Origin: Halopseudomonas oceani
Lineage (GTDB): Bacteria > Pseudomonadota > Gammaproteobacteria > Pseudomonadales > Pseudomonadaceae
NCBI RefSeq assembly: GCF_002903165.1
Contig: NZ_PPSK01000006.1
Span: 1 to 64,000, forward strand
Direction: 5' to 3'
Length of the DNA stretch: 64,000 nt
In this document: positions 1 through 513 of the stretch, one piece after another
Layout: each line of letters opens with the position of its first letter
Numbering within the stretch: the stretch's first letter is position 1
Notes under the pieces: generated by a model
The model's database searches: none
The model's input: the letters and a program-made list of their open reading frames with translations, nothing else
Told to the model about the DNA's origin: nothing
Program-made: the position numbers and the translations under genes

Positions 1-99
1 GTTCGCCAGTTTGGCTTTGGTGCGGTATTTATAGCGCTCCAGCGGCTTGGCGATGTCGAAGGTGTGCTTGGCAATGTCGATTCCGATAACGCAGGTCAT
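1..99 (-). CDS. IS110-family DEDD recombinase (transposase), N-terminal 33 codons only
   Basis: The visible N terminus is MTCVIGIDIAKHTFDIAKPL followed by a basic stretch. The GIDIAKxxxD pattern is the first acidic motif of the RuvC-like DEDD domain of IS110/IS1111 recombinases. These enzymes excise the element as a circle and insert it at a core dinucleotide. The ATG at 99-97 follows a minus-strand GGAGG-like ribosome site (about 103-108). The rest of the protein, including the C-terminal serine domain, is outside the window, so subgroup and integrity cannot be judged. Confidence 0.75.
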   Translation of the reverse strand, partial: MTCVIGIDIAKHTFDIAKPLERYKYRTKAKLAN

Positions 100-133
100 G
101 GGGCCTCCGGCTCTGTTGACAGGCGATCGTCAC

Positions 134-300
134 CACACTCTGTTCTACCTTGCGAATACGTGCTCAGGCGCTAAGCGCCGGCACCAGATACCGTTCGAAC
201 TGTCTGAGTGTGTTGGCAGGTGACGGCCCATCTACGAACCAAGCTCTTGAGGCTTCAGGGGCACACCGGCCTGTCACCTGCCGCCCGATGATCAGTCGGG
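134..300 (-). ncRNA. Candidate IS110 bridge RNA with target-binding and donor-binding loops
   Basis: Read on the minus strand, 5' to 3', this 167-nt stretch has the order known for IS621 bridge RNA. First is a small 5' hairpin (stem 296-300/284-288). Then comes a large loop closed by a perfect 10-bp stem (282-273 with 224-215, plus GGCC/GGCC at 271-268 and 228-225). Then a second large loop is closed by 7 bp (212-206 with 140-134) and contains a hairpin at 168-180. In the first loop, UGUGCCCCU (265-257) equals the top strand of the neighbouring repeat at 427-435. CGUAG (236-232) is complementary to CTACG at 434-438. The two guides meet at CT, as expected for left and right target guides. A TTGACT at 327-322 could be its -35. 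It ends 34 nt before the recombinase start. Confidence 0.6.
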
Positions 301-333
301 GACCATGGTCACAGGAACCACAGTCAACATACA

Positions 334-356
334 AGGGGCACGGCATGCCGTGCCCG
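334..356 (-). repeat. CATG-centred palindromic repeat, copy 1, abutting the IS110 left end
   Basis: A perfect 20-bp palindrome lies at 336-355 (gggcacggcatgccgtgccc). With its flanks, the 23-bp unit on the minus strand equals copy 2 (413-435) except at two positions, which change together and keep the pairing. Beyond CCCCT the sequence differs from the other copies (TTGTATG instead of AC), which fits IS110 insertion at this point. Confidence 0.85.
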
Positions 357-412
357 TGGTCATGCTCGCACGGCGGCTTCCCGGGCCGACCGATGTAAGC
401 GCCACGGCCGTT

Positions 413-435
413 CGGGCACAGCATGCTGTGCCCCT
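413..435 (+). repeat. CATG-centred palindromic repeat, copy 2, intact
   Basis: A perfect 20-bp palindrome lies at 414-433 (gggcacagcatgctgtgccc), followed by CTACG. It is inverted relative to copy 1. The segment 427-438 is the stretch matched by the two predicted guides of the candidate bridge RNA. Confidence 0.85.
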
Positions 436-513
436 ACGCCAGGATTGGTGATTGGTGCGGCTTGCCGCACGCACGGTGGTGCGGCCGTCGCGGATATCTG
501 CGCCCGGCGGCGC
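436..513. other. Noncoding gap before the PLD-like gene
   Basis: There is no convincing gene in 356-513. Besides repeat copy 2 it holds a small hairpin (GTGCGG 455-460 with CCGCAC 465-470) that could take part in ending transcription of the minus-strand phospholipase D-like gene. It has no T tract. Confidence 0.4.

Follow-up and report, generated by a model that had tools for sequence, protein, structure and literature searches.

An IS110-group insertion sequence of Halopseudomonas oceani with a left-end bridge RNA that very probably addresses the edges of palindromic repeats

Introduction

How does an insertion sequence come to lie exactly at the edge of a short palindromic repeat? The question is raised by the window analysed here, the first 64,000 nucleotides of one contig (contig 6, NZ_PPSK01000006.1) of Halopseudomonas oceani, whose genome is assembled in 64 contigs. 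The window starts at the contig tip, and the left end of a mobile element lies there. We are highly confident that this end belongs to an IS110-group (IS621-like) insertion sequence, and that a bridge RNA encoded in its left non-coding end directs insertion to the edge of palindromic repeats.

A truncated IS110-group element at the contig tip

The following features describe the element and its surroundings.

1–99, minus strand: 5′ end of an IS110-type DEDD recombinase gene (MTCVIGIDIAKHTFDIAK...), truncated by the contig start
100–333, minus strand: left non-coding end (LE), 234 nt, bounded by an alignment of 29 elements and by empty sites
334–335, minus strand: core CT of the left element–host junction in the window, placed by the palindrome–LE boundary; empty in H. 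aestusnigri
336–355, no strand: occupied palindromic repeat GGGCACGGCATGCCGTGCCC, whose minus-strand 3′ half is the left target
414–433, no strand: sister palindrome GGGCACAGCATGCTGTGCCC, unoccupied in the window
427–437, plus strand: free perfect target TGTGCCC-CT-AC, occupied by the same element in H. aestusnigri

The middle of the window copy's recombinase gene is absent from the assembly; contigs C1, C38 and C41 of the same genome carry partial sequences of additional copies, and the nearest named relatives carrying the element are H. pachastrellae and H. aestusnigri. Domain scores were taken on the C1 copy, a full-length relative from the same genome, with its internal TAG read as Q. The C1 recombinase scored 102.5 bits against Pfam PF01548 (DEDD RuvC-like domain; cut-off 29), 79 bits against PF02371 (Transposase_20 domain; cut-off 21.3) and 234.6 bits against the NCBIfam model NF033542, 'IS110 family RNA-guided transposase' (cut-off 140). 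The closest solved structures were those of ISCro4 (PDB 9t56; E 1.2e-65, the best match), compared at the protein level, and of IS621 (E 1.5e-63). Residues D8, E58, D100 and D103 and the serine of an ISRTG motif align with IS621. We take these to be the catalytic D-E-D-D and the C-terminal serine, respectively.

The right end (RE) is short, about 20 nt with the stop codon counted in, and the RNA sits in the long LE upstream of tnp. Membership of the IS1111 group was considered and rejected: that group has a long RE, and its RNAs lie downstream of tnp with reversed guide order (PMC11187229). Judged from sequence by its domains, aligned residues and long-LE/short-RE layout, the element falls in the IS110 group (IS621-like) of the IS110 family, the family named in a preliminary description of this DNA.

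The left junction reads ...GGGCACGGCATGCCGTGCCC-CT|TGTATGTTGACTG..., with the CT at 335–334. The occupied palindrome is thus the one at 336–355, not that at 414–433, and the CT at 434–435, where the preliminary description had the two guides meet, is free here. Two occurrences of the palindrome GGGCACRGCATGCYGTGCCC were counted in the window, against 0.00 expected.

Structure of the predicted bridge RNA

The fold proposed earlier for the minus strand, with a 5′ hairpin (300–284), a loop closed by the stem 282–273/224–215 and a second loop closed at 212–206/140–134, was correct in its coordinates.

128–300, minus strand: predicted bridge RNA, its extent given by a covariance-model match (118.2 bits, E 2.7e-27)
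284–300, minus strand: 5′ hairpin (helix 2; 100% of cells paired, three pairs with compensatory change)
215–282, minus strand: target-binding loop, closed in the fold by the perfect 10-bp stem 282–273/224–215
134–212, minus strand: donor-binding loop, closed by the stem 212–206/140–134 (helices 4 and 5, many double changes)

The covariance model (R1) was built from 26 sequences of other genera, all Halopseudomonas being excluded, and gave no other significant match in the window. The minimum free energy of the fold was −75.4 kcal/mol (z = −2.35 relative to dinucleotide-shuffled sequences). In an alignment of 29 sequences, compensatory changes were seen in 22 of 40 pairs, and the covariation score was 0.320, compared with 0.178 ± 0.008 for shuffled and at most 0.095 for slid alignments. 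The letters of the target-loop closing stem differ, yet its pairing is kept in most relatives. An Rfam search of positions 1–600 returned no family match (best hit at chance level, E 0.83).

Target guides and their match to flanking DNA

Two stretches of the target-binding loop read as guides.

257–265, minus strand: left target guide UGUGCCCCU, 9 nt including the core CU, delimited by own-flank covariation
232–235, minus strand: right target guide GUAG, pairing with CTAC, recognised by its match to the flank

As first reported, UGUGCCCCU (265–257) is identical to the top strand at 427–435. The guide thus matches this free site at 9/9 positions, and matches the flank occupied in the window at 8/9 positions with one G-U. 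Guides and flanks were compared over the left ends of 29 elements with 54–94% protein identity, from many genera of Pseudomonadaceae. Over positions −9 to −3, the seven outside the core, left guide and own left flank agreed in 195 of 203 cases; permuted flanks gave 120.2 ± 6.6, and 0 of 10,000 permutations reached 195. Agreement dropped to background at −10, which sets the left guide at nine letters, the length reported for IS621 (PMC11208160). Across the 29 relatives, covariation is seen in the structure as well as in the left guide.

On the right side, all readable elements of this set carry CTAC, and from the fifth base on, past GUAG, no own-flank signal was found, which sets the right guide at four letters. 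The CGUAG earlier proposed as right guide (236–232) is indeed complementary to 434–438, but only GUAG is supported: C236, which would add a pair with CTACG, matches in 14 of 26 relatives against 13.0 expected. The pairings of the right target guide and of the right donor guide are nearly invariant, and covariation is uninformative for both.

None of three conditions that would have spoken against the earlier reading (a recombinase outside IS110, missing covariation, copies generally placed away from guide-like sites) was found. The expectation that other copies would sit at guide-predicted sites mostly held. In multi-copy relatives (six genomes), 19 of 27 insertions match at 9/9 positions, seven at 8/9 and one at 7/9; poor matches are found at loci L064 (6/9) and L135 (5/9). 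In one genome (G145), nearly identical recombinases carry two guides, GUCCACCCU and AUCCAUCCU, and lie at correspondingly different sites. Its copies (L055, L098–L101) represent two guide variants of one element, each at matching sites, i.e. natural retargeting. Separately, H. pachastrellae harbors four copies (L135, L139, L140, L141) of another bridge-RNA element, related to the first, with the guide GUCCACCCU; three of their flanks match at 8/9 and one at only 5/9 positions.

Insertion at hairpin edges across the lineage

Of 55 distinct insertions, 42 have a left flank that terminates in the 3′ arm of an inverted repeat (perfect, at least 6 bp), compared with 6.7% of 1,100 control positions; the lineage inserts at the outer edge of hairpin repeats. 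Such a preference would also arise if the recombinase protein or the hairpin shape picked palindromic repeats, the match in the RNA loop being a by-product, and protein-directed REP targeting has been suggested for the IS3-family elements IS1397 and ISKpn1 (PMC1525189). We consider this explanation very unlikely here: the nearly identical recombinases of G145 have different targets with correspondingly different guides, guide–flank covariation is position-exact, and of the 13 insertions that lack an inverted repeat reaching 6 bp, several match their guide (e.g. L078, at 15/15 letters).

We tentatively propose, at slightly less than even confidence, that this Pseudomonadaceae IS110 lineage is specialised on extragenic hairpin repeats. 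Fixed guide parts (the left guide's terminal CCU and the right-guide GUAG) would read the common outer edge C-CTAC, and the variable left-guide letters would follow the drifting 3′ arm of the host repeat family. Free YGTGCCCCTAC sites number 12 in the genome of the window element, against one for the reversed pattern; many of them, not all, are edges of the CATG-centred palindrome family. Per-genome comparison of guide and repeat abundance (CGTGSCCCTAC counts) gave a mixed picture. H. aestusnigri has mostly CGTGGCCCTAC sites despite a guide that reads the C type, and an abundance version of the co-evolution idea is thus unsupported.

Further loci add to the inventory. In genome G308 (L110, C1:3,570,900–3,574,000), two tandem copies of a related element lie 1,332 bp apart, each adjoining its own GGCGGACAG...CTGTCCGCC repeat. 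The window genome contains one Y1_Tnp-family gene (L114, C7:82,770–82,967; 228 aa, PNHAHIL motif), located away from the listed palindrome copies; its product is possibly a REP-associated tyrosine transposase. The C1 copy of the same genome (L001/L038, about 434,390–435,395) lacks the entire bridge RNA. Two TGACC words bound the deletion, which leaves the initial 21 nt of the LE fused to the recombinase gene; the gene then starts with GTG and has the internal TAG. As both ends and the flanking palindrome/CTACG are retained, this copy could be moved in trans.

The donor loop and the element ends

The second large loop, noted in the preliminary description but left unread there, exists and is the donor loop.

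186–194, minus strand: left donor guide ACGGUAUCU, identical to the element right end (GACGGTAT-CT)
148–153, minus strand: probable right donor guide GCAAGG, proposed by sequence match

The RE reads ...GACGGTAT-CT in contigs C1, C38 and C41, as it does wherever the RE of a relative could be read, and GCAAG (153–149) pairs with CTTGT at the LE start, with one G-U. With the RE match and the LE-start pairing in the donor loop, both loops of the bridge RNA become readable. CAAGG is invariant, and the right donor guide thus yields no covariation. The conserved three-part structure, the match and covariation of the left target guide and the match of the donor guides to RE-CT-LE together mark the LE as encoding a predicted bridge RNA.

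In elements with a readable junction, the RE–LE circle junction contains TTGC, about 17 nt and then TATCTT. This weak promoter-like pattern is a possible circle-only promoter; protein coding may also explain it. When the left end in its integrated state was scanned for sigma-70 promoters, none was found. On the minus strand, the occupied palindrome (355–336) and the T-rich LE start (333–324) score as a terminator-like hairpin, which could keep read-through out of the bridge RNA region.

The LE structure might instead be a 5′-UTR regulator of recombinase translation and no guide, in the manner of the ISPpu9 5′-UTR and Asr9; the tnp 5′-UTR of ISPpu9 is a folded regulator of translation (PMC8450116). 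Both roles, which are compatible, could be served by one structured leader, but regulation in place of guiding leaves the exact 9-nt guide/flank covariation and the donor match unexplained, and we judge it highly improbable.

A natural experiment in the gabT–phospholipase D gap

The gene gap next to the window insertion allows the guide reading to be followed through three species. H. aestusnigri (L047) has, in this order, gabT, repeat–spacer–repeat, element, phospholipase D; the window genome has gabT (on C38), element, repeat–spacer–repeat (334–438), phospholipase D (514–1959). The gene names are putative readings of the translations, and we infer from synteny with H. aestusnigri that C38 is the right flank of the window copy. 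The site occupied in H. aestusnigri corresponds to window positions 434–435, and on its right side CTACGCCAGG follows, the sequence also found in the window; conversely, the site occupied in the window is intact in H. aestusnigri (GAGCTGTAGGGGCACAGCATGCC). REP-mediated inversion was rejected as the source of the differing positions: the spacer keeps its direction between the palindromes and the element is flipped, which points to independent insertions and not to a single inversion.

A third palindrome of this gap carries the element in H. pachastrellae. One contig reads phospholipase D, then GGCCACGGCATGCCGTGGCC-CT|LE; another reads gabT, both repeats, then ...TTTCGTAG|RE. The guide of this copy is UGUGGCCCU, and the same C-to-G change is present in guide and flanking palindrome. 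Two H. pachastrellae contig tips (L045, L046) have the phospholipase D end and the whole element in common and different right flanks; these are two separate copies or the product of misassembly.

The earlier proposal that the element is addressed to the CATG-centred palindrome family is borne out: in H. aestusnigri the occupied and empty sites are reciprocal, and in H. pachastrellae guide and palindrome show a compensatory change. Three related species thus show insertions at three repeats of one gene gap, with a matching guide beside each, an unusually clean support. Every Halopseudomonas copy has a palindrome directly next to its LE. The idea that this palindrome is a terminal structure of the element, and the guide-like match a repeat of that end within the element, is nevertheless refuted by these reciprocal empty sites (the empty site in H. 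aestusnigri, the differently placed insertion in H. pachastrellae), by palindromes at many places without the element and by other genera with a different flank and an unchanged LE, and has a negligible probability.

Discussion

Bridge RNAs were described for IS621 by Durrant et al. 2024 (PMC11208160) and Hiraizumi et al. 2024 (PMC11208158). The window element resembles IS621 in its IS110 recombinase, homologous over nearly the full length, in an RNA within a long LE with 5′ stem-loop, target loop and donor loop, and in a 9-nt left and 4-nt right target guide, a CT core and a REP target. Unlike IS621, it has different guide letters and a different target (the CATG-centred palindrome, with CTAC on the right side), its host is Halopseudomonas, and it is described here from its sequence. 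ISPpu10 and ISPpu9 of Pseudomonas putida are IS110-family elements that occupy a single position within REPs and show a direct repeat of 2 bp (PMC1525189; PMC8450116), and the ISPpu10 bridge RNA is among six drawn by Durrant et al. (PMC11208160). Compared by published description, they are likewise Pseudomonadaceae IS110 elements in repeats, of another REP family. In the seekRNA systems of ISEc21 and IS1111 elements, an RNA from a non-coding region picks the target, as we propose here, and natural redirection by guide change has been described; ISEc21 differs in its longer transposase (PMC11187229).

The anatomy, homology, RNA structure, guide–target covariation and occupied and empty sites reported above can be joined to steps taken over from IS621, namely circle formation, transcription, RNA–protein binding and strand exchange. 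On this model, the element would be excised as a circle, the bridge RNA would be transcribed from the reconstituted RE–LE junction, and this left-end RNA would bind the DEDD recombinase. Its first loop would pair with the repeat edge through the left guide UGUGCCCCU and the right guide GUAG, overlapping at the core CT, and its second loop with the element's own RE-CT-LE junction through ACGGUAUCU and GCAAG. Strand exchange at CT would then insert the element at the 3′ edge of the repeat hairpin, between ...GTGCCC-CT and CT-AC.... The predicted target of the window guides is CTGTGCCC-CT-ACG; more generally, the guide UGUGCCCCU would address ...GTGCCCCT targets and the guide UGUGGCCCU ...GTGGCCCT targets.

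IS621, ISPpu9 and ISPpu10 in REPs, the bridge RNA and natural seekRNA redirection are already published. As the mechanism is known, the element is a new, well-supported member of this class, and it is the element that is new. The address of its bridge RNA could be read from a raw sequence fragment and then checked by natural experiments. The 29 guide/target pairs offer a test bed for natural bridge RNA retargeting and for guides aimed at multi-copy repeats. If the lineage is indeed specialised on extragenic hairpin repeats, its guides would evolve in step with host repeats, both within a genus (the C-to-G change in guide and palindrome) and within a genome (G145, with two guides).
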